Below are positions 36,380-60,463 of a DNA stretch of 64,000 nt, one piece after another. This DNA is from Litoreibacter roseus. Its GTDB lineage: Bacteria > Pseudomonadota > Alphaproteobacteria > Rhodobacterales > Rhodobacteraceae. The notes below the pieces were generated by a model. It saw nothing but the letters and a program-made list of their open reading frames with translations. It made no database searches and was not told the DNA's origin. The translations under genes and the position numbers were made by a program. The stretch lies in assembly GCF_009811795.1 (NCBI RefSeq), contig NZ_BLJE01000001.1, forward strand, positions 1 through 64,000. Direction: 5' to 3'. Numbering within the stretch: the first letter of the stretch is position 1; each line of letters opens with the position of its first letter.

Positions 36380-36407
36380 AGTATCCTCCCTAGGTGCTTC
36401 CACTACT

Positions 36408-38430: not shown

Positions 38431-38459
38431 TTGACAGTCGAGAGCGCTTGGCGACTAAT
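38431..38459 (+). promoter_or_regulatory. candidate promoter of the TRAP operon
   Basis: TTGACA (38431-38436), 17 bases, then ACTAAT (38454-38459). A 6-bp hairpin CGCCGC/GCGGCG follows at 38468-38485, just before the ribosome site. Confidence 0.45.
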
Positions 38460-38499
38460 TGACAAAACGCCGCACCCAAGCGGCGAGTTCGGGAGGAAC

Positions 38500-39087
38500 A
38501 TGCCAATCATGCTGGCAGTCACGCGCGCCTTGGCGGCTGTGAACGCGCTTGTTCTCGCGATCGGTCGGTTTATTTCGATCGGCCTCATGGGCTTTATGGT
38601 TCTTGTGATCCTCTTGCAGGTCTTCTTTCGATACATCTTGAACGATGCGTTGCCCTGGTCCGAGGAGGCCGCCCGCTTCATGATGCTGTGGATGACCGGC
38701 TTGGTCGCACCATCGGCCTATCGTTGGGGGGGCTTTGTGGCGATCGAGATGGTGCCGCAAATGCTGCCGAAACGGATCGGCGCGCTCCTGATGCTATTCC
38801 TGTTGGTTGTTGCAGGCCTCGTTCTTGTCGTTGCCGTCCAACTGGGTTGGAAGCACGTGAACAGCGGTTGGTTGTTCAACTCGTCATCCCTTAAAATCCC
38901 TATGGACCTGTTTGGAATGAAGGTCGTCCGGGTCAAGCTGGCGTGGATGTATATGTCCCTTTTCGTCGGTGTGATCCTTCTGCTGTCGGTGAACGTGGAA
39001 CTGATCCTGCGTACTTTGGCTAAATTCGCCGACCGCGAAGACGAGTTGCCAGAGATCAAGCCGCTGATGGCGGTTGAGGCAGAGTAA
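38500..39087 (+). CDS. TRAP transporter small permease (DctQ family)
   Basis: 195 residues, four hydrophobic segments, with LPWSEEAARFMMLWMTGL and an extended segment between the third and fourth helices. ATG 38500 has GGGAGGA at 38491-38497; an in-frame TTG at 38431 falls inside the predicted promoter and is rejected. The stop overlaps the next ATG (TAATG). Confidence 0.87.
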   Translation: MPIMLAVTRALAAVNALVLAIGRFISIGLMGFMVLVILLQVFFRYILNDALPWSEEAARFMMLWMTGLVAPSAYRWGGFVAIEMVPQMLPKRIGALLMLFLLVVAGLVLVVAVQLGWKHVNSGWLFNSSSLKIPMDLFGMKVVRVKLAWMYMSLFVGVILLLSVNVELILRTLAKFADREDELPEIKPLMAVEAE

Positions 39088-40373
39088 TGCTGGTCTGGTT
39101 CCTGCCCATCTTCCTGCTGTTCCTGATGATTGGCCTGCCGGTGTTCTTCGCGCTCTTGGCGGCGCCGGGCATCATGCTGTGGCTGAACGGACAAGAGCGC
39201 GATCTCGCGCTGCTTTATCGCAATGTCTACAACGGCATGGACAGCTTCCCGCTGATGGCGATCCCGTTCTTCATGCTGGCTGGCGAGATGATGAACCGCG
39301 GCGGCATCACCATGCGGCTGGTCGAGTTCAGTCAGGCCATGGTCGGGCACTTCAAAGGTGGGTTGGCACAGGTCAATATTCTGTCCTCCATGCTGTTTGC
39401 AGGGCTGTCCGGATCGGCCGTCGCGGACACCTCTGCACTTGGCTCGATGCTGATCCCCGCGATGGAAAAAGAGGGCTACACCCGCAGGTTCGCCGCCGCG
39501 GTAACCGCTGCCTCCAGTGTAATCGGTCCGATCATTCCACCGTCAGGCATCATGATCATCTATTCCTATGTCATGGGTGAAAGCGTTGCGGCGCTGTTTC
39601 TGGCGGGCATCGTGCCGGGCGTGCTGGTCGGGCTTGGTCTCATGATCGTCACGCGGATCATGGCGAACAGCAACGACTTTCCTGCCTCCCGTGCACGCGC
39701 CACATGGCCGGAAAAGGGCCAAGCATCGCTGAAGGCTTTCTTCCCACTTTTGACCCCAGTGATCATTCTCGGCGGTATCTTGGGCGGGGCGTTCACTCCG
39801 ACGGAAGCGAGTGCGGTCGCCGTGGCCTATGCTTTCATCGTAGCGATCTTCATGCGGACGATGACCGTTGGCGATCTGCCGCAGGTTCTGCTGAAGGCCG
39901 CGCTTACGTCTTCCGTCGTTTTGCTGTTGGTCGGCGCGGCAATGGCGTTCAAGACGGTTGTCAGCCTTAGTCACGCGCCAGAAGCTTTGGCCGCCTTCAT
40001 TCTGACCCTCAGCGAGAATCCGTTGATCCTGCTGTTCCTGATCAACCTGCTGCTTTTCATTGTGGGCATGTTCCTTGATGCGGGACCTGCGATCATCATC
40101 CTCGGTCCGATCCTTGGCCCCATTTTTACAAATCTGGGCATCGATCCGGTCCACTTCGCGATTATAATGAGTGTCAACCTGACGGTGGGTCTTGCGACGC
40201 CGCCTATGGGACTGGTTCTATTCGTCGCGTCATCGGTGTCGGGGGAGCGGGTGGAGTCCATTGCGAAGGCAATTCTGCCGTTCCTTGCGATTGAAATCGC
40301 TGTCATATTCCTGATCACATACGTGCCGAACATCTCGCTGTTTGTCCCGAGGTTCTTCGGCTTCGTAACTTAA
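39087..40373 (+). CDS. TRAP transporter large permease (DctM family)
   Basis: 428 residues, about 12 membrane segments, with DctM landmarks DSFPLMAIPFFMLAGEMMN, GLSGSAVADTSALG, SSVIGPIIPPSGIMIIYSYV and VGLATPPMGLVLFV. Second gene of a complete dctQ-dctM-dctP set. Confidence 0.9.
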   Translation: MLVWFLPIFLLFLMIGLPVFFALLAAPGIMLWLNGQERDLALLYRNVYNGMDSFPLMAIPFFMLAGEMMNRGGITMRLVEFSQAMVGHFKGGLAQVNILSSMLFAGLSGSAVADTSALGSMLIPAMEKEGYTRRFAAAVTAASSVIGPIIPPSGIMIIYSYVMGESVAALFLAGIVPGVLVGLGLMIVTRIMANSNDFPASRARATWPEKGQASLKAFFPLLTPVIILGGILGGAFTPTEASAVAVAYAFIVAIFMRTMTVGDLPQVLLKAALTSSVVLLLVGAAMAFKTVVSLSHAPEALAAFILTLSENPLILLFLINLLLFIVGMFLDAGPAIIILGPILGPIFTNLGIDPVHFAIIMSVNLTVGLATPPMGLVLFVASSVSGERVESIAKAILPFLAIEIAVIFLITYVPNISLFVPRFFGFVT

Positions 40374-40402
40374 AAAGAGTTCCAATAGGGAGGAAACACA
40401 TC

Positions 40403-41476
40403 ATGAAACTGGGAACGCTCACAAAATCGCTGGCTTTGGCTGCGATCATGGGATGTGCAGGGCTTTCGGCCTATGCAGATGGTCATGCGATCACCATTCG
40501 GGCCACCGCAAATTCCAACGAAAACGACGAGGATTATGATGGTCTGGTCGTCTTCAAAAACTATGTCGAACAGGCGTCCAACGGCGCGATCACGGTCGAG
40601 ATGTTTATCGGGACTCAGCTGTGTTCGAATGGAACCGAGTGTTTGCAGGGCATCGCGGACGGTACGATCGACGTTTTCGTGTCTACATCTGGGGGCGTGT
40701 CGGGGGCGTTTCCCTTCGTCCAGGTTCTGGATCTGCCCTACCTGATGTCAGATGACCGCGTCGCCGAGACGGCGCTTGCGAACGGCTCGACCTTCACGAC
40801 AAAAATGCAGGACATGGTCGAAGAAACCTCTGGCGGCGCGATCCGCTTGATGACCATTGGCAACACCGGCGGCTGGCGCAACTTTGCCAACACTCAACGG
40901 CGCGTCCAAACACCTGCTGACATGGAAGGTCTGAAGATCCGGACCGTCGTCGCCGATCTGCCGCAGGAGCTTGTGAAGGCGCTTGGTGCGTCCCCGACGC
41001 CGATCCCGTGGCCTGAACTGTTCACATCGTTTCAAACAGGCGTTGTAGAAGGATCCAAGAACGGCATCACAGATATCATGAACATGAAGTTCCCCGATGC
41101 TGGTCTGAACTACGTCACGCTGGACGGACACGCCTATATGGGCGCGCTTTGGTTCATGAACAACGACAAATTCATGTCGATGGATGAGGACATGCGGCGC
41201 GTCATCGTCGACGGGTTCTACCAGCTACAGCAGGCGACGTTTGCGTCACCAAAGCGCAAGTCGATCCAAGCCTACGAAGACTTCCAAGCGGCTGGCGGTG
41301 ATCTCTATGTACCAACGCCAGACGAAAAAGCTGCATTCAAAGAGGCGGCCGCTCCGGTCTATGACTGGTTCAAGGCCAACATTGATGGTGGCGAAGACAT
41401 CTTCAACGCGCTGAACGAAGCCGTTGCGGACGCAGAGGAAACGATCAATGCGGCGCGCGAAGCGGACCTGAACTGA
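40403..41476 (+). CDS. TRAP transporter substrate-binding protein (DctP family)
   Basis: 357 residues with signal peptide (AAIMGCAGLSAYA) and DctP features: GWRNFANTQRRVQTPADMEG, LKIRTVVAD with the Arg that usually contacts an acid group, and QTGVVEGSKNGITDIM. Two Cys at about 68 and 74 may form a disulfide. The ligand should be an organic anion; the sulfonate genes that follow make a sulfonate (sulfoquinovose glycoside, DHPS or sulfolactate) a reasonable guess. The operon ends in a strong terminator. Confidence 0.87.
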   Translation: MKLGTLTKSLALAAIMGCAGLSAYADGHAITIRATANSNENDEDYDGLVVFKNYVEQASNGAITVEMFIGTQLCSNGTECLQGIADGTIDVFVSTSGGVSGAFPFVQVLDLPYLMSDDRVAETALANGSTFTTKMQDMVEETSGGAIRLMTIGNTGGWRNFANTQRRVQTPADMEGLKIRTVVADLPQELVKALGASPTPIPWPELFTSFQTGVVEGSKNGITDIMNMKFPDAGLNYVTLDGHAYMGALWFMNNDKFMSMDEDMRRVIVDGFYQLQQATFASPKRKSIQAYEDFQAAGGDLYVPTPDEKAAFKEAAAPVYDWFKANIDGGEDIFNALNEAVADAEETINAAREADLN

Positions 41477-41490
41477 ACTCTGTAAACAAA

Positions 41491-41527
41491 AAGTCGGCGC
41501 CCGCTGAATCGGGCGCCGACTTCTTTT
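41491..41527 (+). terminator. strong rho-independent terminator after the TRAP operon
   Basis: A perfect 13-bp stem (AAGTCGGCGCCCG, 41491-41503, with its complement at 41510-41522) around loop CTGAAT, followed by CTTTT. It separates the TRAP operon from the genes beginning near 42.2 kb. Confidence 0.92.
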
Positions 41528-41671
41528 CAACGGTAGACAAAATGGCAGATTGCCCTGTCACCAATGGCACAATCTCCCTTTTTGGGATCGTTGAACTAGT
41601 GGAAATCGAGACGCGTCCGGATCGCGTTGATGCAGGGGGCAATGGTCTGTGGCAAGGTTAATCCGATGATG

Positions 41672-42139
41672 TCAGCGAAACGGATACATCCAGACCTTGT
41701 AATCCGCGATCAAAGCGTGGGCATGGGCGATCTCGTCCTGCGTCATTTTCTTGACCACCTCCTCCTGACTTATCGCGGCATCGGGATCGCCGCCGATCGC
41801 GCTGAGGGCGTACCACATATACGCGCGCACCAGATCAGGCGCGGGCATGCCGATGCCTTCTTCGTAGTACCAACCGATGCCGGATTGCGCGCCGGGGTGT
41901 CCTTTCATGGCCGATCGCAGGTACCACTCGAAGGCGCGCACCGGGTCCTTTTCGACGCCGAGGCCGAGGGCGTACATTACGCCGATCAACTCTTCGGCGT
42001 CGGCATTTCCAGACCGCGCAAACGGGGCAAGCGCGGCGCGGGCTTCTTCGAATTGCCCTGCTTCCATCAGGTCGCGGGCCTTTTCGATATCTCCCAGTGC
42101 TGGCGTCGCAAAAAACAGAAGAGCCAAGAAAAGTCGCAT
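41672..42139 (-). CDS. secreted Sel1-repeat protein
   Basis: 155 residues: signal peptide MRLFLALLFFATPALG, then Sel1-like repeats (ADAEELIGVMYALGLGVEKD, AEWYL-type and GAQSGIGWYYEEGIG segments). It is periplasmic and probably mediates protein contacts. GGAG lies six bases before the ATG. It starts head-to-head against the cytochrome peroxidase gene with almost no space between, so their control regions must lie inside each other. Confidence 0.82.
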   Translation of the reverse strand: MRLFLALLFFATPALGDIEKARDLMEAGQFEEARAALAPFARSGNADAEELIGVMYALGLGVEKDPVRAFEWYLRSAMKGHPGAQSGIGWYYEEGIGMPAPDLVRAYMWYALSAIGGDPDAAISQEEVVKKMTQDEIAHAHALIADYKVWMYPFR

Positions 42140-42190
42140 CGAAATCTCCGTGTCGCGATCGCACTTTGCCTGTCTGTAGGGTCAACCGCA

Positions 42191-43444
42191 ATGGCGGAGC
42201 AACCATTGGTGATCACGTCCGAGATGTTTCCCGCGATTGACGCAGAGAAGGCCGCATTGGGCCAACTCTTATTTTATGACCCCATCCTGTCGGGCAATCG
42301 CAACATCAGCTGTGGGACTTGCCATCATCACGATCATTTCTCGGCGGATGGGGTCAGCCTGTCTATCGGCGAAGGCGGGGAGGGCGTTGGACCAAGTCGC
42401 AAGGTTGGGCTCGATGAGATCAAGAAACGCGTACCTCGGCATGCGCCCGCTTTATGGAATATCGGCGCGCACCAGTTTCGGACGTTTTTCCACGACGGCC
42501 GGGTAAGCGCGTCGGACGATTACGGGAACGGCATAAACTCCCCGGCAGAAGAATGGTTACCCGAAGGCTTGGAAGGCCTCCTCGCCGCGCAAGCGCTGTT
42601 TCCGATGACCGCGCAGTTTGAAATGGCGGGCAACCCAAGCGAAAATGAAGTGTCCGGTGCAGTACATGATCGGATCGACAAAGGTTGGCCCATATTAGCG
42701 AAGCGAGTGCGCGGGATTGATGACTATGCCCGGCGGTTCACGCGGGCTTTCGATCTGAACACCCGAGAGGATATCTCAATTGCCCATATTGCAAACGCAC
42801 TTGGTGCATTCATGGGCAGTGAGTGGCGGAGCTTTGACAGCCCATTCGATGAATGGCTCATGGGAACAGGGCAGCTGACAATTGATCAGGATCGAGGCCG
42901 CAAGCTGTTTTACGGCCGTGCGGGATGCAGCAGCTGCCATAGCGGGCCGTTTCAAACGGACCATGCCTTTCACGCGATCGGCTTGCCGCCTTTCGGTCCA
43001 GGGCGCACCCGGCAGTTCGATCCTCTGCCACGGGATGTCGGGCGCATGGCCGAGAGTAATGATTTGGCCGATGCCTACAGATTTCGAACCCCGTCGCTGC
43101 GTAATGTTGCCCTAACGGGCCCGTACGGTCACAACGGCGCTTATCCGACGCTGGCCGGTATCATTCGCCACCATGCAAACCCAGGGAAAAGCCTGCTCGA
43201 TTGGCTGCCAGAGCTTGCGCGACTTCCGGATATTCCCAACCTCTCTGCGGTGGACTTTGCGATCCATCAAGACAGTCGCGAAATGGCGCGGGTGCGAGGC
43301 AAACTTGATATCGAACCGCGCGATCTCAGTGATCGTGATATTGAGGATCTCGTGGCATTTATGGGCTCTTTGACAGGTAGGGACAGCCGCCATGGAAGAT
43401 TGGGGCGCCCCGACATCGTACCTAGCGGATTGAAGGTCGACTGA
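42191..43444 (+). CDS. di-heme cytochrome c peroxidase / MauG-family protein (start uncertain)
   Basis: At least 417 residues. Two c-type heme motifs are present, CGTCH (42311-42325) and CSSCH (42926-42940), with family segments RTPSLRNVALTGPYGHNGAY and FFHDGRV. It should be periplasmic. The in-frame codons before ATG 42191 read RVAIALCLSVGSTAMA, an obvious signal-peptide core with an AMA cleavage site, yet no ATG, GTG or TTG occurs in frame between about 42051 and 42191. The true start is therefore either a rare codon near 42143-42170 or a TTG deep inside the antisense Sel1 gene. The stop overlaps the kinase start (TGATG), tying it to the sugar genes. Confidence 0.75.
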   Translation: MAEQPLVITSEMFPAIDAEKAALGQLLFYDPILSGNRNISCGTCHHHDHFSADGVSLSIGEGGEGVGPSRKVGLDEIKKRVPRHAPALWNIGAHQFRTFFHDGRVSASDDYGNGINSPAEEWLPEGLEGLLAAQALFPMTAQFEMAGNPSENEVSGAVHDRIDKGWPILAKRVRGIDDYARRFTRAFDLNTREDISIAHIANALGAFMGSEWRSFDSPFDEWLMGTGQLTIDQDRGRKLFYGRAGCSSCHSGPFQTDHAFHAIGLPPFGPGRTRQFDPLPRDVGRMAESNDLADAYRFRTPSLRNVALTGPYGHNGAYPTLAGIIRHHANPGKSLLDWLPELARLPDIPNLSAVDFAIHQDSREMARVRGKLDIEPRDLSDRDIEDLVAFMGSLTGRDSRHGRLGRPDIVPSGLKVD

Positions 43445-44325
43445 TGGTTCATGTCTTGGTCGTCGGCAGTGCGGTTCTGGACTTCGTCTACCGCGTAGAT
43501 GAGTTACCAAAAGCGGCCGAGAAATACAGGGCGTTTGATATGGAAACTGTCGGCGGGGGGTGCGCCGCAAACGCCGCCGTGGCGATTTCACGGTTGGGTC
43601 AGAGGGCTTCGCTGTTGGCCCGGTTCGGGCGCGATATTGTTCAAACGCAAGTGATGGAGGATCTGACAAACGAAGGTGTCTTGTTGGATTTGGTCGACAT
43701 CGCGGAAGGGGGGCGATCGGCTGTTTCGTCGGTCTACGTGGACAGGACCGGCGAACGGCAGATCATGGCGTTTCGCGGGGAAGGGCTAAGCCAAAAACCG
43801 GCACCGCTGAAGTTGGAGGCCATCGACGCTGTGCTCGCGGATACCCGTTGGCCCGAGGCCTCCCTTCTGGCTTTAGAGCACGCACGGGCGCTTGGTTCAC
43901 CTGGCATTTTGGACGGGGAAGCACCGATTGACCTCGCTCTGGCTGAGGCGGCAAGCCACGTTATTTTCTCGGAACAGGGGCTTCTGGATTTCCAAACCGA
44001 AACCAATGTAAAAGAAGCGCTTTTGGGCGCATCAGCGCGTCTGCCGGGCTGGGTTGCCGTGACCTCGGGCAGTGCCGGTGTCGCTTGGGTCGAGGGCGAC
44101 CATGTGCGTCAAATGCCTGCCTTCAAGGTCGATGTCAAAGATACATTGGGGGCGGGCGACGTGTGGCACGGCGCGTTCGCGCTCAATCTGTCAGAGGGGG
44201 CAGTGATCGAAGAGGCAATTCGGTTTGCAAATGCCGCGGCGGCATTGAAATGTACGGGCCATGGGGGCCGCAAGGCGGCGCCGAACCGCGAACAGGTTGA
44301 ACAGTTTCTAAAGGACAACACATGA
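43444..44325 (+). CDS. PfkB-family sugar kinase, probable 6-deoxy-6-sulfofructose kinase (YihV-like)
   Basis: 293 residues, ribokinase/PfkB family with GGGCAANAAVAISRLG (37-52) and the catalytic GAGD at 236-239 in FKVDVKDTLGAGDVWHG. From memory it resembles E. coli sulfofructose kinase YihV more than LacC or FruK: shared segments include PAFKVDV-DT-GAGDV-HGA, VTSGSAG-W and LAD-RW, and Lys27 and the Arg in LADTRW (135) coincide with YihV residues reported to bind the sulfonate; the third reported residue (Asn109) is Ala here. Predicted reaction: sulfofructose + ATP to sulfofructose 1-phosphate. It overlaps the aldolase gene by four bases. Confidence 0.72.
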   Translation: MVHVLVVGSAVLDFVYRVDELPKAAEKYRAFDMETVGGGCAANAAVAISRLGQRASLLARFGRDIVQTQVMEDLTNEGVLLDLVDIAEGGRSAVSSVYVDRTGERQIMAFRGEGLSQKPAPLKLEAIDAVLADTRWPEASLLALEHARALGSPGILDGEAPIDLALAEAASHVIFSEQGLLDFQTETNVKEALLGASARLPGWVAVTSGSAGVAWVEGDHVRQMPAFKVDVKDTLGAGDVWHGAFALNLSEGAVIEEAIRFANAAAALKCTGHGGRKAAPNREQVEQFLKDNT

Positions 44326-45350
44326 TAATTTTATCGCCGGGCAAGCTCTGGGGAATGCGCCGGATGGCGGACGCGTCGGGTCTTTTCAAGATGACCGCAG
44401 TGGATCAGCGCCCACCGATTAAAGGACCAATCGCCCAGCACTACGGAACGGCGGAGGCGCCTTTTGAAGATGTTGCGCGGTTTAAAGCGCTGCTGGTCGA
44501 GACGTTGCAGGAGGCCTCGTCGGCCATGCTGCTTGATCCTCACTATGCGATCCCGGTGGGTTTGAAGCATCTGTCGCCAACAAAGGGCCTGATTGTGACG
44601 CTGGAGAACTCGCTTTTCGAGGAAACGGGGAACGGCCGGAAATCGTCAGAGATCGATGATTGGTCGGTGGCGAAGATCAAGCGGATGGGTGGCGACGCTG
44701 TCAAAGTCCTCGCTTGGTATCGGCCAGATGCGGATGCGGCTGTGTTGCAGCACCAGAAAGACTGGACCAAGCGGATCGGCGCGGCCTGCGCCAAGTATGA
44801 TATCCCGTTCCTTTTCGAACTGCTGGTTCATCCCCTGGACAGCGACGCGGAGCAGACCAGCGAATACGTCGAAATGAACACCAAGCGTGCAGGTGATGTT
44901 CTGGCGTCGGTCGAGGAATTCGCAAAACCGGACTACGGTGTTGATGTTTTCAAGCTGGAAAGCCCGGTTCCGGCCAAGGATGTTGCAAACACGGACGGGG
45001 TGCAGGACCTGTTCGATGAGATGGGCCGTCTTTCTGGTCGCCCTTGGGTCATGTTGTCAGCGGGTGCCGGAAAACCTGAGTTCCACACGATACTTGAACA
45101 CGCTTACGCCGCTGGCGCATCCGGGTTCTTGGCAGGTCGGGCGATCTGGTTGGATGCGTTTCAGATGTTCCCGGACTGGGACGACATAGAGGTTGGATTG
45201 CGGGGCGACAGCTCAAGCTACATGGCGGAGATCAGTGCATTGACCGATGCGAAGGCAACGCCGTGGGATCAGCATACATGTTTCGGCGAGGGCGGCGCGC
45301 AATTCACCCCAGCGGATGCCAGCTTTCGGCATGGCTACGACGGATTCTGA
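44322..45350 (+). CDS. class I LacD/YihT-type aldolase, probable sulfofructose-1-phosphate aldolase
   Basis: 342 residues, (beta/alpha)8 aldolase of the tagatose-bisphosphate/sulfofructosephosphate family. The Schiff-base Lys is K211 in VFKLESP, next to WVMLSAGAGKPEFHT and ASGFLAGRAIW, which parallel YihT. TAVDQRPPIKG near the start is the family's AVDQR motif. Predicted to split SFP into dihydroxyacetone phosphate and 3-sulfolactaldehyde. A tagatose-1,6-bisphosphate role cannot be excluded from the sequence, but the kinase partner and aldehyde dehydrogenase argue for the sulfo version. Confidence 0.72.
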   Translation: MIILSPGKLWGMRRMADASGLFKMTAVDQRPPIKGPIAQHYGTAEAPFEDVARFKALLVETLQEASSAMLLDPHYAIPVGLKHLSPTKGLIVTLENSLFEETGNGRKSSEIDDWSVAKIKRMGGDAVKVLAWYRPDADAAVLQHQKDWTKRIGAACAKYDIPFLFELLVHPLDSDAEQTSEYVEMNTKRAGDVLASVEEFAKPDYGVDVFKLESPVPAKDVANTDGVQDLFDEMGRLSGRPWVMLSAGAGKPEFHTILEHAYAAGASGFLAGRAIWLDAFQMFPDWDDIEVGLRGDSSSYMAEISALTDAKATPWDQHTCFGEGGAQFTPADASFRHGYDGF

Positions 45351-45353
45351 ACC

Positions 45354-46700
45354 ATGAAGATTGGACTTTTGCCCCTGGCGCGCCCGACCTTCGATGTTGC
45401 TTATGCGGAAGAGAAGCTGGCCGGTATGTTGGCTGTTTTGGATGCCACGGGTCATGAGATCGTAGGGCCCAGAAGCTTGTTGATGGAAGCGAGCCTTGAC
45501 GCGCTGAATGCGGTGGGTGAGGCGGATCTGGTCCTTATCCTGCAAGTAACCTTTACCGACGCCGCCTTTATCGTGGAGGCATCCAAGCTCAATCGACCGC
45601 TTGCGATCTGGGCCGTTCCTGAACCGCGCTTAGGCGGACGGCTGCGGCTTAATGCATTCTGTGGTTTGAATCTCGCGAGCCACGCATTGGCCGCCAACGG
45701 GATCGCTTTCAATTGGCTTTATGGAGATCCGGAAGATGTGGACCTGACGTCGCTGCTGGATGGGTCGCGCGGCGTTCGGCGTATTGAAGGCTCTGTCCCG
45801 AATGTATCGCCTTCACCGATGCCTGCCGAGGGTTTGCGAATTGCGCGGATAGGGGAACATCCCATCGGGTTCGATACCTGTGCGTATGACAAAAGCGCGC
45901 TGAAGGCACTTACTGGTGCGGAAATTGATGAGCTTGCACTGGACGACATGTTTGCAGCCGCACGCGCTTTGCCCGAAGATGCCGTCGCGCCCTATATGGA
46001 GAAAGCAGCAGCTCTTCCAAATCTTAAACACATGGATGCGGGCGAGTTGAATAGATCCTTGCGACTCGCCGGGGCGTTGGATCAACTGAAGACAGACGGC
46101 AAGTATGACGCCTTCGCGATACGGTGTTGGCCAGAAACGTTCACTGAATATGGTGGTGCGGTCTGTGGCCCCGTGTCGATGATGGGCGAGGCGCGTGTGC
46201 CGTGTGCCTGTGAGGCGGATGTCTATGGTGCGGTAACGCAGGCGATGTTGCAGGAGATTGCAGACGCGCCGGTGTTTCTGGCCGATCTCGTCGATATGGA
46301 TGTTGCGGACGACACAGGTGTGGTGTGGCATTGCGGGCAAGCGCCTGTCTCAATGACGGACGACACACCGATGGCCACGGTTCATACGAACCGCAGGCAG
46401 GCATTGCTCTACGAGTTCACCTTGAAGCCGGGGCGCGTGACATTTTTCCGGCTCTCTCAGGCGGGCGGCACACCGAAGATCATTATCGCAACCGGTGAGA
46501 TGCTGGCACGGGACATGGCATTCACCGGTACATCAGGCGTGGTCCGCTTTGACCACGGTGCTGCGGGCGTCTTGCGGGACGTGATGAACAGCGGATTGGA
46601 ACATCACATGGCACTGGCCTATGGCGATCATGCCGATGCCTTACGATCGGTTGCCGCTGGGATGAACCTGCCGCTCATCGAACTGGGGGTGGGACAATGA
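45354..46700 (+). CDS. L-fucose/L-arabinose isomerase-like protein, candidate sulfoquinovose isomerase
   Basis: 448 residues of the L-fucose isomerase-like superfamily. The C-terminal half has the metal-site pattern PCACEADVYGAVTQAML and VVWHCGQAPVSM with the ligands expected for Mn-dependent ketol isomerases. In a set with a ketose kinase and aldolase it should turn the imported aldose into the ketose. Some sulfoglycolytic routes use an isomerase of this superfamily instead of YihS (recalled, not checked). It starts 3 bp after the aldolase and overlaps the next gene as ATGA. Confidence 0.68.
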   Translation: MKIGLLPLARPTFDVAYAEEKLAGMLAVLDATGHEIVGPRSLLMEASLDALNAVGEADLVLILQVTFTDAAFIVEASKLNRPLAIWAVPEPRLGGRLRLNAFCGLNLASHALAANGIAFNWLYGDPEDVDLTSLLDGSRGVRRIEGSVPNVSPSPMPAEGLRIARIGEHPIGFDTCAYDKSALKALTGAEIDELALDDMFAAARALPEDAVAPYMEKAAALPNLKHMDAGELNRSLRLAGALDQLKTDGKYDAFAIRCWPETFTEYGGAVCGPVSMMGEARVPCACEADVYGAVTQAMLQEIADAPVFLADLVDMDVADDTGVVWHCGQAPVSMTDDTPMATVHTNRRQALLYEFTLKPGRVTFFRLSQAGGTPKIIIATGEMLARDMAFTGTSGVVRFDHGAAGVLRDVMNSGLEHHMALAYGDHADALRSVAAGMNLPLIELGVGQ

Positions 46701-47791
46701 TCCGGTACGGTCTGATCGGCGCCGGCATGATGGGGCAGGAACACATCCGCAATATCGCCTTACTGGACGGGGCCTCCGTCACTGCGGTGGCCGATCCGGA
46801 TGAAGGCATGCGGTGCCGAGCCGCTGAAGTCGCCCATGGCGCGCGGGCCTTTTCCGACTACGCGGAGCTGTTGGGCTCGGATCTGTGCGACGTTTACCTG
46901 GTGGCCGCACCGAATGACTTACACGCAGGCATACTCCAGAAATTGCTCGCGACAGACAAACCGATCCTTGTAGAAAAGCCCTTGGCCACCACGTCAGCGG
47001 ATTGCCGAGATTTGCTGAACATGGCGCGCGGTCGCAACGCGCCGATTTGGGTCGCGATGGAGTACCGTTATATGCCGCCGTTGCAACGGCTGATGCAGGC
47101 CATCGATCAGGGTGCTGCGGGCACCCCCCGCATGATGTCGATCCGCGAACACCGTTTTCCCTTTTTGCCTAAAGTCGCGGACTGGAACCGGTTTAACACA
47201 CGGACGGGCGGAACCCTGACCGAGAAATGCTGCCACTTCTGGGATCTCATGCGTCTGGTTCTGAAAAGCGATCCCGTGCGGGTCTACGCAAGTGCTGGCG
47301 TCGACGTGAACCACAGGGATGAGCGCTATTTTGGAAAGGTGCCGGATATCGTGGATAATGCTTATGTCATTGTGGATTTCGCCTCCGGCGCGCGCGGAAT
47401 GTTGGATTTGTGCATGTTCGCCGAAGGCTCATATTGGCAGGAAACCGTGGCCGTGACAGGCGAAAAGGCGCGATTAGAGGCGTTCGTACCGGGACCGGCC
47501 CGGTTCGCACCCGATGGCCAAGAAAGGAAATCCGAGTTTGTCATGTCATTGCGCGCCTTGAAAGAAGAGGTCCGCGAAGAAATACATGTAGACGAAAAAA
47601 TCCTGAACGCGGGTGATCACCACGGATCGACCTATTTCCAGCATGAGCGCTTCCTAAAGCTGGTCAGAACCGGGCGCGGCGCGCCTGAGATCACCTTGGA
47701 GGATGGTTATTGGTCAGTATTGGTCGGTGAGGCGGCAGAAGAAAGTGCCCGGTCCGGACAGGCAATTGATTTGCGAGGAAAAGGCCCTTGA
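46697..47791 (+). CDS. Gfo/Idh/MocA-family protein, candidate NAD-dependent sulfoquinovosidase
   Basis: 364 residues. Rossmann motif GLIGAGMMGQEHIRN (4-18), EKP in ILVEKPLATT, then the alpha/beta domain with WNRFNTRTGGTLTEKCCHFW, where GG-x-x-x-E-K-C-C-H marks the substrate pocket. Family members are sugar dehydrogenases, but some are NAD+-dependent glycosidases (GH4/109-like chemistry), and a recently described group of this fold hydrolyses sulfoquinovose glycosides (GH188, recalled). No GH31 sulfoquinovosidase lies in the cluster, so this protein is the best candidate for releasing sulfoquinovose. A dehydrogenase role is the alternative. Confidence 0.62.
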   Translation: MIRYGLIGAGMMGQEHIRNIALLDGASVTAVADPDEGMRCRAAEVAHGARAFSDYAELLGSDLCDVYLVAAPNDLHAGILQKLLATDKPILVEKPLATTSADCRDLLNMARGRNAPIWVAMEYRYMPPLQRLMQAIDQGAAGTPRMMSIREHRFPFLPKVADWNRFNTRTGGTLTEKCCHFWDLMRLVLKSDPVRVYASAGVDVNHRDERYFGKVPDIVDNAYVIVDFASGARGMLDLCMFAEGSYWQETVAVTGEKARLEAFVPGPARFAPDGQERKSEFVMSLRALKEEVREEIHVDEKILNAGDHHGSTYFQHERFLKLVRTGRGAPEITLEDGYWSVLVGEAAEESARSGQAIDLRGKGP

Positions 47792-48783
47792 GCTTTGGTG
47801 CGATGCCCGCTGGTGATCCAGTCACGCGCCACCGCATAGAGGGCGGCGGTCTTACGGCTTGGATCTTAAGCTACGGGGCAGTTTTGCAGGATCTGAGGTT
47901 TGAGGGACATCCGCACCCGCTGGTGCTTGGCTTCGAACGCTTCGAGCCCTACCTTACATCATCTCCCTATTTCGGTGCGATTGCTGGCAGATGCGCCAAC
48001 CGGATCACCAATGCCAGTTTCGAAATTGACGGGAAGACCTTTCAACTCGACCGGAACGTCGAAGGCATCCACAGCTTGCACGGTGGCTCAAAGGGCATGG
48101 GAAAGCGCAACTGGGACGTGGTTGGTATTGGCCCGGATAGCGTAACGCTGGAATATATCGCTGACAACGGCGAGATGGGATACCCGGGCAAACTGTCGGC
48201 ACGTGTGACTTACACTTGCCTGCCGGATGGCATTTTCGATATTCGACTTCATGCAACCACCGACACCCCGACCCTCTGCAATCTTGCCCATCATACCTAT
48301 TGGGCGCTTGATGACACTGGGGATACGGCACACCACCTGCTGCAGGTTGATGCGGATCATTACGTTGAGGTCGATGACCTTTTCATTCCCACAGGGACAG
48401 TTGCGAATGTCGCCGGCACGCGCTTTGATTTCAGGACGACCCGTCCTATCGCGGACGAAACGTTGATCGATCATAATCTGTGCCTGTCGTCCGAGCGGGA
48501 ACCATTGCGCCGTGTCGCCCGTTTGATGTCAACGCAAAGTGATGTCTCGATGGAGGTTCTGACAACGGAACCGGGGCTTCAGGTTTACGACGGCTATAAA
48601 ATCGACATCGACATACCCGGGCTCGAGCAAAAACATTATGGACCAAATGCCGGGCTGGCGCTGGAACCGCAGGTTTGGCCTGACGCCATCAACCACGACA
48701 GCTTTCCAAACGCTGTACTCCGACCAGACGACACCTACCGTCAGCACACGCAATTCAAGTTTTCAAAAGGACCAGCCTCATGA
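47788..48783 (+). CDS. aldose 1-epimerase (mutarotase), candidate sulfoquinovose mutarotase
   Basis: 331 residues of the galactose mutarotase family: AGRCANRITNASFEIDGK, the catalytic His in GIHSLHGG and LAHHTYWALD, and Glu in ALEPQVWPDA. It equilibrates sugar anomers; YihR does this for sulfoquinovose in E. coli. The start is TTG 47788, forming TTGA with the previous stop and preceded by GAGGAAAAGG; an ATG five codons later is the alternative. It overlaps the dehydrogenase gene by four bases. Confidence 0.82.
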   Translation: MSFGAMPAGDPVTRHRIEGGGLTAWILSYGAVLQDLRFEGHPHPLVLGFERFEPYLTSSPYFGAIAGRCANRITNASFEIDGKTFQLDRNVEGIHSLHGGSKGMGKRNWDVVGIGPDSVTLEYIADNGEMGYPGKLSARVTYTCLPDGIFDIRLHATTDTPTLCNLAHHTYWALDDTGDTAHHLLQVDADHYVEVDDLFIPTGTVANVAGTRFDFRTTRPIADETLIDHNLCLSSEREPLRRVARLMSTQSDVSMEVLTTEPGLQVYDGYKIDIDIPGLEQKHYGPNAGLALEPQVWPDAINHDSFPNAVLRPDDTYRQHTQFKFSKGPAS

Positions 48784-50222
48784 GCTACGACACATATCTC
48801 AAGCAAGCGAACTTTATCGACGGGTCATGGGTCGGCGCGGACGGCGGTGAGACCATTGATGTGATCAACCCCGCGACAGGCGAGGTGATTGGAACTGTCC
48901 CGGCCAGCGGCACGGATGAAACCAGACGCGCGATCGCGGCAGCACAGGAAGCTTTTCCCGGCTTCTCCTCCATGCCTTTGATGGAACGTCTCGATTTGCT
49001 TTGGAAGCTGCACGATGCACTGATGGACAACCGCGACACTCTGGGGGAATTGCTGACGGTCGAGCAGGGTAAACCGCTGGCGGAGGCGAAGGGAGAGATC
49101 ACCATCGGCGCGGGCTATATCCGATGGTTCGCCGAAGAGGCGCGCCGTGCAAAAGGTGAGATTGTCCCAGCACCCGGGAATGGTCGCCGTATCCTTGTAA
49201 CGAAACACGCGGTGGGCGTGGTGGGAATGATCACGCCGTGGAACTTCCCATCCTCGATGCTGGCACGCAAGGTTGGCCCGGCCTTGGCCGTCGGCTGCAC
49301 CGTCGTGGCAAAGCCTGCAACAGCGACGCCATACTCTGGTCTGGCATGGGCTGCTTTATGCGAAGAGGTCGGCTTTCCAAAGGGTGCGATCAACATTCTG
49401 ACTGGTTCGGCGAAAAAGATCGGCGGTGCAATCATGGATGATCCGCGTGTGCGTAAGGTCACGTTCACAGGCTCCACCGGTGTTGGCAAAGAGCTCATTC
49501 GGCAATCTGCGGACACGGTTAAAAAGGTGTCTATGGAGCTTGGGGGCAACGCGCCGTTTCTGGTTTTTGACGACGCCGATATTGACGCCGCTGTTCAGGG
49601 GGCCGTCGTCTCCAAATTTCGCAATGCGGGTCAGACCTGCGTTTGCGCCAACCGAATCTATGTACAGTCCGGCGTGTACGATGAATTTGTCGAGAAACTG
49701 AAGTCCGAGACCGCGAAGATGAAAGTGGGTGACGGACGCGAAGATGGCGTCGAGCAGGGGCCGATGATCGACATGGATGCTGTCGAGAAGGTGGAGGAAC
49801 TGTTGTCAGACGCCAAGGAAAAAGGCGGTAAAGTGATACTCGGCGGCAACCGTCACGAGAAAGGGCACAGTTTCTTTGAGCCGACAATCGTATCTGAGGC
49901 TACCCAAGACATGCGCTTTTCGAAGGAAGAGATCTTTGGACCGCTCGCACCGGTGTTTCGCTTTGAGGATGAGCAGGACGCAATAGATTGGGCGAATGAC
50001 ACTGAATTCGGTCTGGCGTCCTACGCATACACCCGTGACATCGGGCGTATCTGGCGTCTTAACGAGGGCCTACAATATGGCATGATCGGGATTAACTCGG
50101 GGCTCATTACCACCGTCGAGGCACCTTTCGGGGGCGTAAAGGAAAGTGGTTTGGGTAAGGAAGGCGGCAGTCAAGGGCTCGAGGATTACATGGACACTAA
50201 GTACACCGCCGTTGATTTCTGA
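48780..50222 (+). CDS. NAD(P)-dependent aldehyde dehydrogenase (GabD-like), probable sulfolactaldehyde dehydrogenase
   Basis: 480 residues, complete aldehyde dehydrogenase with ITPWNFP, the Rossmann TFTGSTGVGK, catalytic Glu253 in MELGGNAP and nucleophile Cys287 in GQTCVCANR. It most resembles succinate-semialdehyde dehydrogenases; the sulfolactaldehyde dehydrogenases of sulfo-ED and sulfo-SFT routes belong to the same group. In this operon it would oxidise 3-sulfolactaldehyde to 3-sulfolactate, giving a C3 product different from the DHPS of E. coli. Confidence 0.8.
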   Translation: MSYDTYLKQANFIDGSWVGADGGETIDVINPATGEVIGTVPASGTDETRRAIAAAQEAFPGFSSMPLMERLDLLWKLHDALMDNRDTLGELLTVEQGKPLAEAKGEITIGAGYIRWFAEEARRAKGEIVPAPGNGRRILVTKHAVGVVGMITPWNFPSSMLARKVGPALAVGCTVVAKPATATPYSGLAWAALCEEVGFPKGAINILTGSAKKIGGAIMDDPRVRKVTFTGSTGVGKELIRQSADTVKKVSMELGGNAPFLVFDDADIDAAVQGAVVSKFRNAGQTCVCANRIYVQSGVYDEFVEKLKSETAKMKVGDGREDGVEQGPMIDMDAVEKVEELLSDAKEKGGKVILGGNRHEKGHSFFEPTIVSEATQDMRFSKEEIFGPLAPVFRFEDEQDAIDWANDTEFGLASYAYTRDIGRIWRLNEGLQYGMIGINSGLITTVEAPFGGVKESGLGKEGGSQGLEDYMDTKYTAVDF

Positions 50223-53573: not shown

Positions 53574-54881
53574 ATGAAGCATATCAAACAGCCAGCAATC
53601 GACACGCAGATCGAAGACGGTCGCATCCGCACGCTGGTCGAAGGGATGCTGTCTGAAATCCGTGCCAATGGTGAAGATGCTGTCCGGAAGTATGCGGCAG
53701 ACTTGGATGGCTGGACCTCCGACTTTGCGTTGAGCGATGAGAAAAAGCAGCGGTTGATTGCGCAGGTACCGCAGCAGACACGCGACGATATCGGCTTTGC
53801 CTTCAAGCAGATATCGCGCTTTGCGAAGGCGCAGCGGGGCAGCATTCAGGATTTTCAGATCGATACGGAGCCCGGCGTGACGCTTGGCCAGCGGTGTGTT
53901 CCGGTCGATTGTGCAGGCTGCTATATCCCGGGCGGTCGGTATGCGCATGTGGCCTCTGCTTTGATGAGCGTTGCGACGGCCAAGGCGGCGGGTGTACCGT
54001 TCGTGGTTGCAGCTTCCCCGCCCCGTGGCGATGCCATTGATCCGTCCGTGGCCTATGCGCTCGATCTGGCCGGTGCGGACGTGATCCTTGAGATGGGCGG
54101 TGTTCAGGCAATCGCCTCGATGGCGCTTGGCCTTTTCGGTGCGCGTCCGGCTGACATTCTGGTGGGGCCGGGCAATGCCTACGTTGCGGAAGCCAAACGT
54201 CAGCTTTTTGGTGAGATCGGGATCGATGTCTTTGCCGGGCCGACCGAAAGTGCGGTGATTGCCGATGATACGGCAGACCCTATGACTGTCGCTATTGATC
54301 TCTTGTCTCAAGCGGAACACGGCACGAACTCCCCGGTCTGGTTGTTCACGACGTCCCCGGAATTGTCCGAAACTGTGGCCCGGATTATTCCGAAAGTCGC
54401 GGCCGATTGGCCGACAGGAGAGGTTGCGCTCACGGCGTGGGAGAATTTTGGCGAGGTGATCCTGTGCGAAACACGGGAAGAAATGGCTGCCGTCTCGGAT
54501 CGCTACGCATGCGAGCATTTGCAGGTGCAGACCGCAGATCTGGATTGGTGGCTGAACCGTCTGCGCAATTACGGCTCGCTGTTTCTGGGTGAAGGTTCGA
54601 CGGTGACCCATGGCGACAAATGCTCTGGCACAAACCATATTCTGCCGACCCGTCAGGCGGCCCGGTACACCGGCGGGCTGAACGTGATGAAATTCCTCAA
54701 GGTCCTGACCTGGCAGGAGATAAAGACCGATGCGGATCCTGAAATGTCAGCAGTCGCATCCCGTCTGTCACGGGTCGAGGGGATGGATGGCCATGCCCGT
54801 GCTTGCGACTGGCGTCTGCAAAAGTTCGGCGGACAAACGTCGTGGGATTTCGAGGTTGCTCACCAAGTGCGCTACGACTGA
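53574..54881 (+). CDS. hpsN: HisD-family dehydrogenase, probable sulfopropanediol dehydrogenase (HpsN)
   Basis: 435 residues of the histidinol dehydrogenase family. Zinc and catalytic positions are kept: LLSQAEHG (Gln, His), YACEHLQ (Glu-His pair), GDKCSGTNH (Asp) and MDGHARA (His). The region after the NHILPT motif reads RQAARYTGGLNVMKFLKVLT, which differs from true HisD and matches what I recall of HpsN, the enzyme oxidising (R)-2,3-dihydroxypropane-1-sulfonate to sulfolactate. No his gene is nearby, whereas sulfonate genes converge on it 3 bp later. Confidence 0.78.
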   Translation: MKHIKQPAIDTQIEDGRIRTLVEGMLSEIRANGEDAVRKYAADLDGWTSDFALSDEKKQRLIAQVPQQTRDDIGFAFKQISRFAKAQRGSIQDFQIDTEPGVTLGQRCVPVDCAGCYIPGGRYAHVASALMSVATAKAAGVPFVVAASPPRGDAIDPSVAYALDLAGADVILEMGGVQAIASMALGLFGARPADILVGPGNAYVAEAKRQLFGEIGIDVFAGPTESAVIADDTADPMTVAIDLLSQAEHGTNSPVWLFTTSPELSETVARIIPKVAADWPTGEVALTAWENFGEVILCETREEMAAVSDRYACEHLQVQTADLDWWLNRLRNYGSLFLGEGSTVTHGDKCSGTNHILPTRQAARYTGGLNVMKFLKVLTWQEIKTDADPEMSAVASRLSRVEGMDGHARACDWRLQKFGGQTSWDFEVAHQVRYD

Positions 54882-55760: not shown

Positions 55761-56500
55761 CAGATCTTCTCCAGCGTGCGATCGAGCCATCCCAGAAAGC
55801 CCGTGGGCTCTGCCGCGATGGGTTCAAGGAATGGCGCGAGGATGTCTATTTCCTCGTCCTTGGGGCGCGGCGGAAGGTACTTGTTTACGGGTTTTGTGCC
55901 TTGTTCGGGCATCAGGTCAAAGCCCCCACGTTCGGCCACCAACTTACTGACTTTGCTATCTTTATCCGCCAGATCGCCGAAATGCCGGGCGTTCGACGGG
56001 CATGTTCTGACGCAGGCCGGTTCGCGGTCTTCTTCGGGCAGGTTCTCGTTGTAGATCCGGTCAACGCAGAGGGTGCATTTCTTCATGACACCTTCTGCCA
56101 AATCCATCTCCCGCGCACCGTAGGGACATGCCCAGGCACACAGACCGCACCCGATACAGTCGCTTTCATTGACCAGTACGATGCCGTCCTCGACACGCTT
56201 GTAGCTGGCACCAGTGGGGCAGACCGTAACGCAGGGCGCGTCCTCGCAGTGGAGGCAGGATTTCGGGAAGTGGATTGTCTGGGCGAAGCCTGTTTCGGGC
56301 TGAACTTCGTAGCTGTGGACACGGTTGAGAAAGGTGCCAACGGGCTCCGCGCCATAGGGCTGTTGATCGCTGAGCGGCGCGCCATAATTCTCGGTGTTCC
56401 ATCCTTTGCAACTGACCACGCAGGCGTGGCACCCGACACAGGTGTCGAGGTCGATCACAAGCCCCAGTTTCTTTTCCGTGTGGGTCGGCAACTGGGTCAT
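55760..56500 (-). CDS. soeB: SoeB, iron-sulfur subunit of sulfite dehydrogenase
   Basis: 246 residues with four cysteine clusters of the DmsB type: CVGCHACVVSC, CLHCEDAPCVTVCP, CIGCGLCAWACP and CTLCVDR with later CVRTCP, enough for four [4Fe-4S] centres. It carries electrons from SoeA to SoeC. It lies 58 bp downstream of soeA. Confidence 0.85.
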   Translation of the reverse strand: MTQLPTHTEKKLGLVIDLDTCVGCHACVVSCKGWNTENYGAPLSDQQPYGAEPVGTFLNRVHSYEVQPETGFAQTIHFPKSCLHCEDAPCVTVCPTGASYKRVEDGIVLVNESDCIGCGLCAWACPYGAREMDLAEGVMKKCTLCVDRIYNENLPEEDREPACVRTCPSNARHFGDLADKDSKVSKLVAERGGFDLMPEQGTKPVNKYLPPRPKDEEIDILAPFLEPIAAEPTGFLGWLDRTLEKI

Positions 56501-60444: not shown

Positions 60445-60463
60445 CATTCTGGGTTTTCGTCTT

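Follow-up and report, generated by a model that had tools for sequence, protein, structure and literature searches.

Six tightly packed open reading frames (ORFs) on the plus strand span positions 43444-50222 of the window, the 64,000-nucleotide stretch of the Litoreibacter roseus contig NZ_BLJE01000001.1 that was analysed. In the ORF listing, five of the six start within the preceding stop, overlapping it by 1 to 4 bases, and the remaining one follows its neighbour after a 3-base gap. The first of them, a kinase gene, shares one base with the stop of an upstream di-haem peroxidase ORF. An earlier note on this DNA described six overlapping or abutting genes of named families, and both the ORF coordinates and the Pfam matches agree with it. 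The interval that it gave, 43444..50222, is sound for the six-gene unit but leaves out a linked block upstream, as the conserved region begins at a TRAP transporter at about 38431. The isomerase of the operon was used for a genome scan. It gave 204 relatives, of which the best 80 were kept, and 62 of these are well flanked (at least 7.5 kb upstream and at least 5 kb downstream). The presence of each gene in these 62 loci, called by set identity thresholds, is given with the features below.

38431..39087, plus strand: TRAP small permease (DctQ), an ORF with a likely ATG start at 38500; 54 of 62 loci
39087..40373, plus strand: TRAP large permease (DctM), PF06808 1.3e-118; 57 of 62 loci
40403..41476, plus strand: TRAP solute-binding protein (DctP), PF03480 5.5e-52; 57 of 62 loci
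41672..42139, minus (opposite) strand: small Sel1-repeat-like protein, labelled by reading the sequence; 54 of 62 loci
42150..43444, plus strand: di-haem cytochrome c peroxidase/MauG-family protein, PF03150 3.9e-33; 53 of 62 loci
43444..44325, plus strand: PfkB-family kinase, proposed sulfofructose kinase (YihV type), PF00294 (PfkB) 1.6e-44; 58 of 62 loci
44322..45350, plus strand: class I (DeoC/LacD family) aldolase of the PRK12858 subfamily, proposed sulfofructose-1-phosphate aldolase, DeoC/LacD Pfam 1.9e-23; 55 of 62 loci
45354..46700, plus strand: fucose/arabinose-isomerase-fold protein, proposed sulfoquinovose (SQ)-sulfofructose isomerase (SqvD/SftI-like), Fucose_iso_C 1.1e-10
46697..47791, plus strand: predicted GH188 NAD-dependent sulfoquinovosidase (SqgA), GFO_IDH_MocA 2.1e-23 and its C-terminal domain 3.6e-25; 58 of 62 loci
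47788..48783, plus strand, TTG start: aldose 1-epimerase, proposed SQ mutarotase, Aldose_epim PF01263 6.5e-71; 39 of 62 loci
48780..50222, plus strand: GabD/SlaB-type aldehyde dehydrogenase, proposed sulfolactaldehyde dehydrogenase, Aldedh 1.3e-167; 39 of 62 loci

The kinase, aldolase, isomerase and GH188 genes occur together in 51 of the 62 well-flanked loci drawn from the best 80 of 204, and all six operon genes in 33. Because the grouping recurs across the loci of relatives, it is not a product of chance.

The kinase matches the sulfofructose kinase structure 7ag6 (1.4e-49); its best PDB match is 2rbc, an unassigned sugar kinase and not YihV. In a tree that contains several long branches, it falls into a 25-row group (98/95) together with YihV and the kinase of a Zymomonas SQ cluster, while LacC, FruK, PfkB and RbsK fall outside. 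Within this group YihV sits with the Zymomonas and Variovorax sequences (88/89), separate from the 19-row set of the window (96/94). The YihV-like label of the earlier note thus withstood the phylogeny that it had called for. The Lys27 and Arg135 that it had pointed out are present; in the alignment they fall on Lys27 and Arg138 of E. coli YihV, which we take to be sulfonate contacts. Lys27 is kept in 82 of 86 kinase rows (84 distinct) and Arg135 in 81, and the Arg is absent from all five reference kinases. The same pair is found in kinases from four stretches that have no GH188 or isomerase match (L086, L087, L088 and L095).

The aldolase scores 325 bits against NF009498 (cut-off 184), a subfamily that bears the name tagatose 1,6-diphosphate aldolase. 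Its PDB matches are 8tnf (1.4e-92), the tagatose aldolase 5f2l (2.4e-35) and the sulfofructosephosphate aldolase 7ag1 (3.1e-17), so that by E-value it is nearer to LacD than to YihT. In the tree it groups with neither and forms a class I clade of its own, a third beside LacD and YihT and about 30% identical to either. Orthology with YihT was considered and rejected, given the separate clade and an identity of 29.6% (76% of the query covered). Of the YihT/LacD-like description proposed earlier, membership in class I and the DeoC/LacD family stands, and a particular likeness to YihT does not. Lys211 aligns with YihT K193 and LacD K205, presumably the position of the class I Schiff-base lysine, and is a lysine in 26 of 26 rows.

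The isomerase has a single NCBIfam match at E 0.001, the SftI family NF048012 (2.5e-77). Since its 260.5 bits lie below the equivalog cut-off of 700 bits, the protein is called SftI-like and is not filed as SftI. An AlphaFold model (pLDDT 87.9) matches L-arabinose isomerase 4r1q (1.1e-19) and L-fucose isomerase 1fui (6.7e-13) in Foldseek, with TM scores of 0.47-0.58 and an rmsd near 23 A over whole chains, which means that the placement of domains in the model is unmatched. The SftI match and the fold of the model bear out the earlier description as a fucose-isomerase-like protein. E287, D289 and H326 are kept in 83 of 83 rows (82 distinct) and E261 in 82 of 83.

The Gfo/Idh/MocA protein, a family assignment that Pfam confirms, has SqgA structures among its best PDB matches. 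It matches 8zn9 ('oxidoreductase, putative'; 1.7e-121) and the SqgA entries 8qc3 (2.1e-115) and 8qc2 (4.8e-113), and the next match after this set is 3ezy at 6e-24. Catalytic and sulfonate-site residues named for ArSqgA are K107, Y136, R166, L170, K172, E189, H193 and H321, among which Arg166/Leu170/Lys172 form the sulfonate clamp and Glu189 lies at the C4 hydroxyl (PMC10755693). K94, Y123, R153, L157, K159, E176, H180 and H308 of the window protein are in register with these eight. E151 falls on ArSqgA position 164, one off from the Glu163 given in the paper (PMC10755693). All nine of these residues are invariant across the 77 aligned rows (76 distinct). Judged by its sequence, the protein belongs with the GH188 NAD-dependent sulfoquinovosidases, with the catalytic residues and sulfonate clamp kept.

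Pfam likewise agrees with the mutarotase and GabD-like dehydrogenase named earlier. The dehydrogenase matches 8c54 (9.3e-163) and, more strongly, the succinate-semialdehyde dehydrogenase 3jz4 (9.7e-179). It barely reaches the SSADH subfamily cut-off (646.4 against 646.35 bits) and shares 53% identity with E. coli GabD. In RlGabD, Arg171/Arg289 and WNF positions have been proposed to bind sulfolactaldehyde (SLA) (PMC10599462); these are present in the window enzyme and likewise in E. coli GabD. Its proposed role as a sulfolactaldehyde dehydrogenase is assigned by context.

Gene order, homology, synteny, the glycosidase residues and the kinase Lys/Arg pair together point to an oxidative hybrid sulfo-EMP operon for SQ degradation in this marine member of the Rhodobacterales, a reading to which we give a probability of about 0.9; all substrates and the import role of the TRAP transporter are predictions within it. 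The TRAP transporter would import SQ or sulfoquinovosyl glycerol, and GH188 would free SQ through an NAD-dependent cycle of oxidation, elimination, hydration and reduction. The mutarotase would equilibrate the SQ anomers, the metal-type isomerase would convert SQ to sulfofructose, and the YihV-type kinase would phosphorylate sulfofructose at C1. The class I aldolase, via a lysine Schiff base, would cleave sulfofructose-1-phosphate to dihydroxyacetone phosphate and sulfolactaldehyde, which the GabD-type dehydrogenase would oxidise to sulfolactate. This is the route from SQ-glycoside to sulfolactate predicted earlier, and by homology and synteny it is the best reading of the genes. A Zymomonas plasmid carries the same gene set but with a class II aldolase instead.

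Three rival readings were weighed. Its greater proximity to LacD by E-value, the fucose/arabinose-isomerase fold of its neighbour and that neighbour's score far under the SftI cut-off would suit an EMP-like operon for another 6-sulfosugar, for example sulfofucose (6-deoxy-6-sulfo-galactose), degraded by isomerisation to sulfotagatose, which would be phosphorylated and then cleaved by a LacD-like aldolase; such a route was considered for Paracoccus wurundjeri before an ED route was found (PMC12421959). We consider this unlikely, as GH188 keeps the SQ-contact residues of ArSqgA, including Glu189 at the C4 hydroxyl, the TRAP transporter is common to clusters of the sulfo-SMO type, SMO being an SQ pathway (PMC13372026), and the literature examined contained no demonstrated sulfotagatose pathway. 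Less probable still is that the kinase and aldolase serve a different, non-sulfonated keto-acid or keto-sugar and merely lie beside SQ genes. Plasmid stretches of Variovorax and Microvirga, each about 11 kb long and with no GH188 or isomerase match, do carry both members of such pairs (38-41% and 45-50% identical). However, the six window genes overlap or abut as one unit, four of them co-recur at the frequency given above, and the kinase of the Zymomonas SQ set falls into the 25-row group that also holds the window kinase.

A LacC/LacD-like pathway for tagatose or galactose, the rival named in the earlier note, is the least credible of all. The name of the aldolase subfamily speaks for it, as do galactoside-utilisation genes on the minus strand at about 26142-36415 (GH36 by profile, others by reading). 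Clustering of the kinase with LacC and of the aldolase with LacD, which the note held would overturn its proposal, is absent as far as the trees tell, which speaks against assigning either enzyme to the tagatose-6-phosphate pathway, and the Lys/Arg pair of the kinase is absent from LacC. Unlike the Lactococcus lac operon, the operon ORFs include no galactose-6-phosphate isomerase or PTS gene, and the reading leaves GH188 and the isomerase unexplained.

The block at 38431-43444 (TRAP, Sel1-like and di-haem peroxidase-like genes) travels with the sulfo-EMP operon, and copies of the TRAP transporter also adjoin sulfo-SMO genes. DctM shares 71% identity with its counterpart in a Rhizobium sp. SL42 cluster of the sulfo-SMO type. 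A 76% identical copy of the Sel1-like protein, annotated as a tetratricopeptide repeat protein, adjoins TRAP and sulfo-SMO-type genes in Ruegeria TM1040. Among 71 family genomes, its own included, this TRAP is found in 26, GH188 is found in 25 of those 26, and in 23 of these 25 it lies no more than 7 kb from the TRAP. The transporter is probably the importer of SQ or its glycoside for both sulfo-EMP and sulfo-SMO, with DctP as the proposed receptor. The Sel1-like protein has a signal-like stretch at its N-terminus. The peroxidase-like protein has two CxxCH motifs, and its ORF has more than one start candidate, of which 42191 is the first in-frame ATG past a signal-like stretch. The chances seem about even that the three components form a portable sulfosugar-uptake module independent of the downstream pathway, joined to sulfo-EMP here and to sulfo-SMO (as a whole module or TRAP alone) in other Rhodobacterales and Rhizobium. 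It would import the sulfonated sugar or its glyceride, with the periplasmic di-haem enzyme carrying out an uptake-linked redox step.

Several known systems come close to the operon. The oxidative sulfo-EMP pathway of Arthrobacter sp. AK01/AK04 likewise has a YihV sulfofructose kinase, an SFP aldolase, an SLA dehydrogenase, GH188 SqgA and sulfolactate as product; it has a YihS-type isomerase and ABC transporters, and a mutarotase gene was not found in it (PMC8873060, PMC10755693). In the operon described here, the isomerase is SqvD/SftI-like, the transporter is of the TRAP type, a mutarotase is present and the aldolase belongs to a clade separate from YihT. Sulfo-EMP2 of Bacillus urumqiensis shares the fucose-isomerase-like SqvD and the same intermediates, and aerobes oxidise SLA to sulfolactate, but its kinase is of the PfkA type and its aldolase is a class II zinc enzyme, where the window has a PfkB-type kinase and a class I aldolase (PMC9594981). 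Hybrid sulfo-EMP clusters that mix sulfo-EMP and EMP2 enzymes are described, Proteobacteria included, and the exact combination of the window was not found among them in the accessible parts of these sources (PMC10599462, PMC9594981, PMC12890257). In two further clusters, from Actinobacteria bacterium IMCC26103 and Clavibacter sp., GH188 has a Tyr where ArSqgA has Leu170; both encode an SF kinase, a fucose isomerase, an SLA dehydrogenase and sulfolactate sulfo-lyase subunits, and one of them also an SFP aldolase (PMC11465081). In contrast, the window GH188 has Leu there, and profile searches of the genome gave no SuyB-sized PF04295 match, nor any ComE match over the cut-off. The GH188 cluster of Jannaschia faecimaris is listed in the legend to Fig. 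5c of a 2023 paper (PMC10755693). Its locus carries TRAP, Sel1, peroxidase, kinase, aldolase, isomerase, GH188, mutarotase and dehydrogenase genes in the order of the window, with the GH188 and mutarotase genes about 1 kb further apart; the kinase is 44% and GH188 75% identical.

The operon very probably encodes a pathway of an already described kind, and its novelty is modest, because fucose-isomerase-like SQ isomerases (SqvD), GH188 (SqgA), GabD/SlaB-type SLA dehydrogenases and hybrid sulfo-EMP clusters have all been published and J. faecimaris has the same set in the same order. The enzyme families that the earlier note called unusual are not new to this pathway. A possibly new element is that two unrelated SQ pathways are accompanied by the same adjacent uptake genes.

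SQ is a sulfur sugar of plants and algae. Its output is put at 10 billion tons a year (PMC10755693), and a 2026 survey terms the sulfite-releasing sulfo-SMO the prevalent route in Roseobacter-clade bacteria (PMC13372026). The sulfo-EMP set of the window would give sulfolactate instead; gene content could therefore distinguish between these two fates of the sulfur, with the isomerase as a marker of EMP and GH188 plus TRAP as markers of SQ use more generally. If confirmed, the TRAP link would provide a pathway-independent marker for SQ uptake and a testable function for the Sel1-like and peroxidase-like neighbours.

The six genes of the operon (43444-50222) lie at the predicted positions, all on the + strand, with overlaps of 1 to 4 bases or a 3-base gap between them, and the first, encoding the kinase, overlaps the stop of the upstream di-haem peroxidase ORF. 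Pfam and NCBIfam profile matches confirmed the families assigned to the six products: a kinase, an aldolase, an isomerase, a Gfo/Idh/MocA protein, a mutarotase, and a dehydrogenase. The sulfo-EMP-type sulfoquinovose (SQ) pathway predicted in the earlier note is judged right; it belongs to a type already described. The parts of the literature available to us already cover SQ isomerases of the fucose-isomerase type and clusters that mix EMP and EMP2 enzymes (PMC9594981), GH188 in Roseobacter-clade bacteria (PMC10755693), oxidative sulfo-EMP with a sulfolactaldehyde (SLA) dehydrogenase (PMC8873060), and hybrid sulfo-EMP in Proteobacteria (PMC12890257; PMC10599462). Jannaschia faecimaris is named in the accessible legend of Fig. 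5c of PMC10755693, and its locus (L029) carries the TRAP transporter, Sel1-like, and peroxidase genes together with the six operon genes in the same order as in the window.

The fourth gene had been called only a Gfo/Idh/MocA protein. The family stands, and the PDB matches give a closer identity as kin of SqgA, which the available text of PMC10755693 describes as an NAD-dependent sulfoquinovosidase and the founder of GH188. In the PDB the window protein is closest to 8zn9 ('oxidoreductase, putative', 1.7e-121) and to two SqgA structures, 8qc3 (2.1e-115) and 8qc2 (4.8e-113), with 3ezy (6e-24) following next. When the residue register is set by placing window Arg153 on Arg166 of the Arthrobacter enzyme (ArSqgA), K94, Y123, L157, K159, E176, H180, and H308 coincide exactly with Lys107, Tyr136, Leu170, Lys172, Glu189, His193, and His321. 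Glu151 lands on position 164, one off from the Glu163 given in PMC10755693. All nine residues are identical in 77/77 aligned rows (76 distinct), which comprise the window protein, proteins from 71 of the 80 related loci, and four plasmid proteins. These conserved residues are the strongest evidence for sulfonated glucose as the probable substrate.

For the isomerase, SftI, a sulfoquinovose isomerase, is the sole NCBIfam match at E 0.001 (2.5e-77), and the score of 260 bits is below the equivalog cut-off of 700. No PDB chain was matched by sequence with phmmer and a profile search. An AlphaFold model built from 18 sequences (mean pLDDT 87.9, pTM 0.89) matched L-arabinose isomerases (1.1e-19) and the L-fucose isomerase of E. 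coli, 1fui (6.7e-13), in a structure search, with TM-scores of about 0.5 and a large whole-chain rmsd. Of the candidate metal ligands, E287, D289, and H326 are invariant over 83/83 rows (82 distinct), and E261 is shared by 82/83.

A tagatose pathway of the LacC/LacD type was rejected because the kinase and the aldolase fall outside the LacC and LacD groups in trees. In the kinase tree (31 rows, several long branches), the window protein belongs to a 25-row group (98/95) shared with YihV and the Zymomonas SQ-cluster kinase, while LacC, FruK, PfkB, RbsK, PsuK, and the kinase from the Arthrobacter GH188 plasmid lie outside it. Within this group, one subgroup (88/89) unites YihV with the Zymomonas kinase and a Variovorax kinase, and a separate one of 19 rows (96/94) holds the window's kind. 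Hence, YihV is a cousin of the window kinase, which is not nested with it. Its best PDB match is the 'sugar kinase' 2rbc (3.3e-61), presumably from Agrobacterium, ahead of sulfofructose kinase 7ag6 (1.4e-49). Lys27 is common to 82/86 rows and Arg135 to 81/86 (84 rows distinct); the Arg is absent from all five reference kinases and the Lys is present in E. coli PfkB. SQ clusters are not the sole place where the pair occurs: kinases of four stretches (L086, L087, L088, and L095) without a GH188 or isomerase match also have it.

The aldolase groups with neither LacD nor YihT, and the YihT-like label does not hold for it in particular. In a tree of 26 rows, which has long branches and gives no order of nearness between LacD and YihT, it shares a clade of 22 rows (93/92) with proteins from like loci and with Variovorax and Microvirga proteins. 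Its PDB matches run from 8tnf (1.4e-92) through tagatose aldolases (best 2.4e-35) to YihT (best 3.1e-17). The protein is not an orthologue of YihT. Lys211 is aligned with YihT Lys193 and LacD Lys205 in 26/26 rows, and the enzyme thus looks class I. A sulfo-ED or sulfofucose-ED route was also rejected; the candidate galactoside-type genes (about 26-36 kb) form a separate block on the - strand more than 7 kb away. This block, which by sequence reading includes genes for a lactonase, an SDR, and a kinase of the DgoK type, adjoins GH36 and ABC genes. The upstream IclR and UgpC genes are patchy across the best 80 loci and were assigned to it rather than to the operon.

The dehydrogenase matches succinate-semialdehyde dehydrogenase 3jz4 (9.7e-179), which we take to be E. 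coli GabD, better than 8c54 (9.3e-163). The latter is presumably the Rhizobium SLA dehydrogenase of PMC10599462. The sulfonate-holding residues proposed in the available part of that paper occur in the window dehydrogenase and in E. coli GabD alike, and therefore do not separate SLA from succinate-semialdehyde activity. The proposed roles of the dehydrogenase and the mutarotase rest on operon context.

An isomerase scan of one genome per species gave 204 relatives, and the 80 best of them serve as the loci compared here; they were picked by similarity to the window isomerase and are thus an uneven sample. Among the 62 well-flanked loci of these best 80 of 204, at identity thresholds that we set, the kinase was found in 58, the aldolase in 55, GH188 in 58, the mutarotase in 39, and the dehydrogenase in 39, with all six catabolic genes together in 33. 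DctP and DctM were each present in 57, DctQ in 54, the Sel1-like gene in 54, and the peroxidase in 53. Within the fetched stretches the aldolase was absent in seven loci, DctP in five, and GH188 in four, and the kinase was undetected in four. Three loci (L049, L056, and L076) have the kinase directly adjoining the isomerase, with the aldolase missing and GH188 present. Seven others (L030, L034, L043, L059, L070, L078, and L081) carry kinase, isomerase, and dehydrogenase genes but neither an aldolase nor GH188 within the sequence retrieved; by sequence reading, a 2-hydroxyacid-dehydrogenase-like ORF is next in line in L030.

Downstream of the operon lie further sulfonate genes.

Sulfonate genes neighbouring the operon
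53574-54881, + strand: HpsN-type sulfopropanediol 3-dehydrogenase (PDB 8v35, 5.8e-155, versus histidinol dehydrogenase, 3.6e-67)
54885-62233, - strand: Soe/Pta/Xsc-like block of Xsc, a phosphate acetyl/butyryltransferase-family gene, and a DMSO-reductase-type three-subunit complex
60464-62233, - strand: Xsc sulfoacetaldehyde acetyltransferase (TIGR03457, 939 bits, cut-off 676)

We take the three-subunit complex to be a SoeABC-like sulfite dehydrogenase. The HpsN-type gene, which passes TIGR00069 and is easily misnamed histidinol dehydrogenase, gives another way into sulfolactate close to the operon. HpsN matches occur in 5/80 loci (L004, L005, L008, and L010 at 75-80%, L045 at 52%) and SoeA matches in 4/80 (L002, L004, and L009 at 74-77%, L031 at 61%), many loci ending before that distance. 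Since their carriers are mostly Litoreibacter-like, these genes were treated as neighbors and rejected as operon parts. A PF04295 search of the organism's own genome gave one match, a 500-aa UxaA-like ORF, and none of the size we assume for SuyB. A ComE search of this genome gave six matches, none over the cut-off; the weakest lies in a decarboxylase-like gene that is broken into two ORFs. On contig 3 (L111, 6593-8201), a thiamine-diphosphate decarboxylase-like gene is split into two overlapping ORFs. Sulfolactate may be exported or may follow another route.

Plasmids carry related gene sets. On a 34 kb plasmid of Zymomonas mobilis (L085, 2489-14808), a YihV-type kinase, a class II aldolase, an epimerase, a fucose-isomerase-like protein, GH188, a TonB receptor, and SSADH form an apparent hybrid sulfo-EMP set. 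In the plasmid of Arthrobacter sp. YA7-1 (L083, 769-11095), GH188 adjoins kinase, aldolase, SSADH, SDR, galactonate-dehydratase, DHDPS-family, and SMP-30 genes. This set partly resembles the sulfofucose ED set in the available text of PMC12421959 and is possibly a double sulfosugar cluster. A Paracoccus seriniphilus plasmid (L094, 1-8680) encodes an AMP-binding protein, a sugar isomerase, DhaK, DAK2, a LacD-like aldolase, an aldehyde dehydrogenase, a GntR regulator, and a protein distantly related (26%) to the SQ isomerase; it possibly specifies another sugar pathway.

The TRAP transporter upstream of the operon goes with GH188 in genomes of the family. Of 71 such genomes (one per genus, the window's own included, E-value lines set by us), 33 have GH188, 26 have the window-type DctP, and nine have the isomerase. 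GH188 is present in 25/26 genomes with DctP versus 8/45 without it (Fisher p 3e-11), or in 24/25 when the organism's own genome is excluded (p 6e-11), both values being uncorrected for relatedness. In 23 of the 25 genomes with both, DctP and GH188 share a contig at a distance of 3.8 to 6.8 kb. The isomerase is absent from 16 of these 25, and all nine isomerase genomes have both DctP and GH188. Peroxidases of the close group (58% identity or more, a line we set after inspecting the list) occur in 16 genomes, all with DctP, and lie within 7.5 kb of it in 13, about 14 and 21 kb from it in G058 and G020, and far away in G057. More distant relatives (43-53%) are found both with and without DctP.

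A tblastn search of plasmids with DctP gave 13 records, ten of them at 63-82% identity, and GH188 is also on nine of those ten. Of 22 GH188 plasmid records, 11 were examined, and five (L089, L098, L099, L100, and L101) carry the TRAP genes, in all five adjoining a flavin reductase, an aldo/keto reductase, an LLM-class monooxygenase, and GH188. Matched by name, the first three are read as the set of the monooxygenase-type SQ pathway (sulfo-SMO). The locus of Ruegeria TM1040 (L098) also has Sel1-like (76% identity) and peroxidase (58% identity) genes, which were not detected in the other four. Small Sel1-like and MauG/cytochrome c peroxidase-like proteins (41672-43444 in the window) accompany the transporter in sulfo-EMP loci and in one examined sulfo-SMO-type locus. 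The six other examined records showed no such TRAP. ABC genes occur in the Marinovum SMO-type locus and in Shinella, Arthrobacter, and Burkholderia multivorans loci, and MFS genes in Zymomonas; the Paraburkholderia stretch is unannotated. The PDB matches of DctP (best 4p47, 1.5e-33; isethionate 8t9t, 4e-27; DHPS 24gc, 7.7e-16) were rejected as a guide to the ligand, being general TRAP matches that name none. Among the listed matches of our literature searches, none was seen to tie a TRAP transporter or cytochrome c peroxidase to SQ uptake, and we do not claim the link as unpublished. We read the transporter as the proposed importer of SQ or SQ-glycosides for both the sulfo-EMP and the sulfo-SMO pathway. 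To the described kind the operon adds an aldolase of a separate clade and this transporter link, the latter worth testing.
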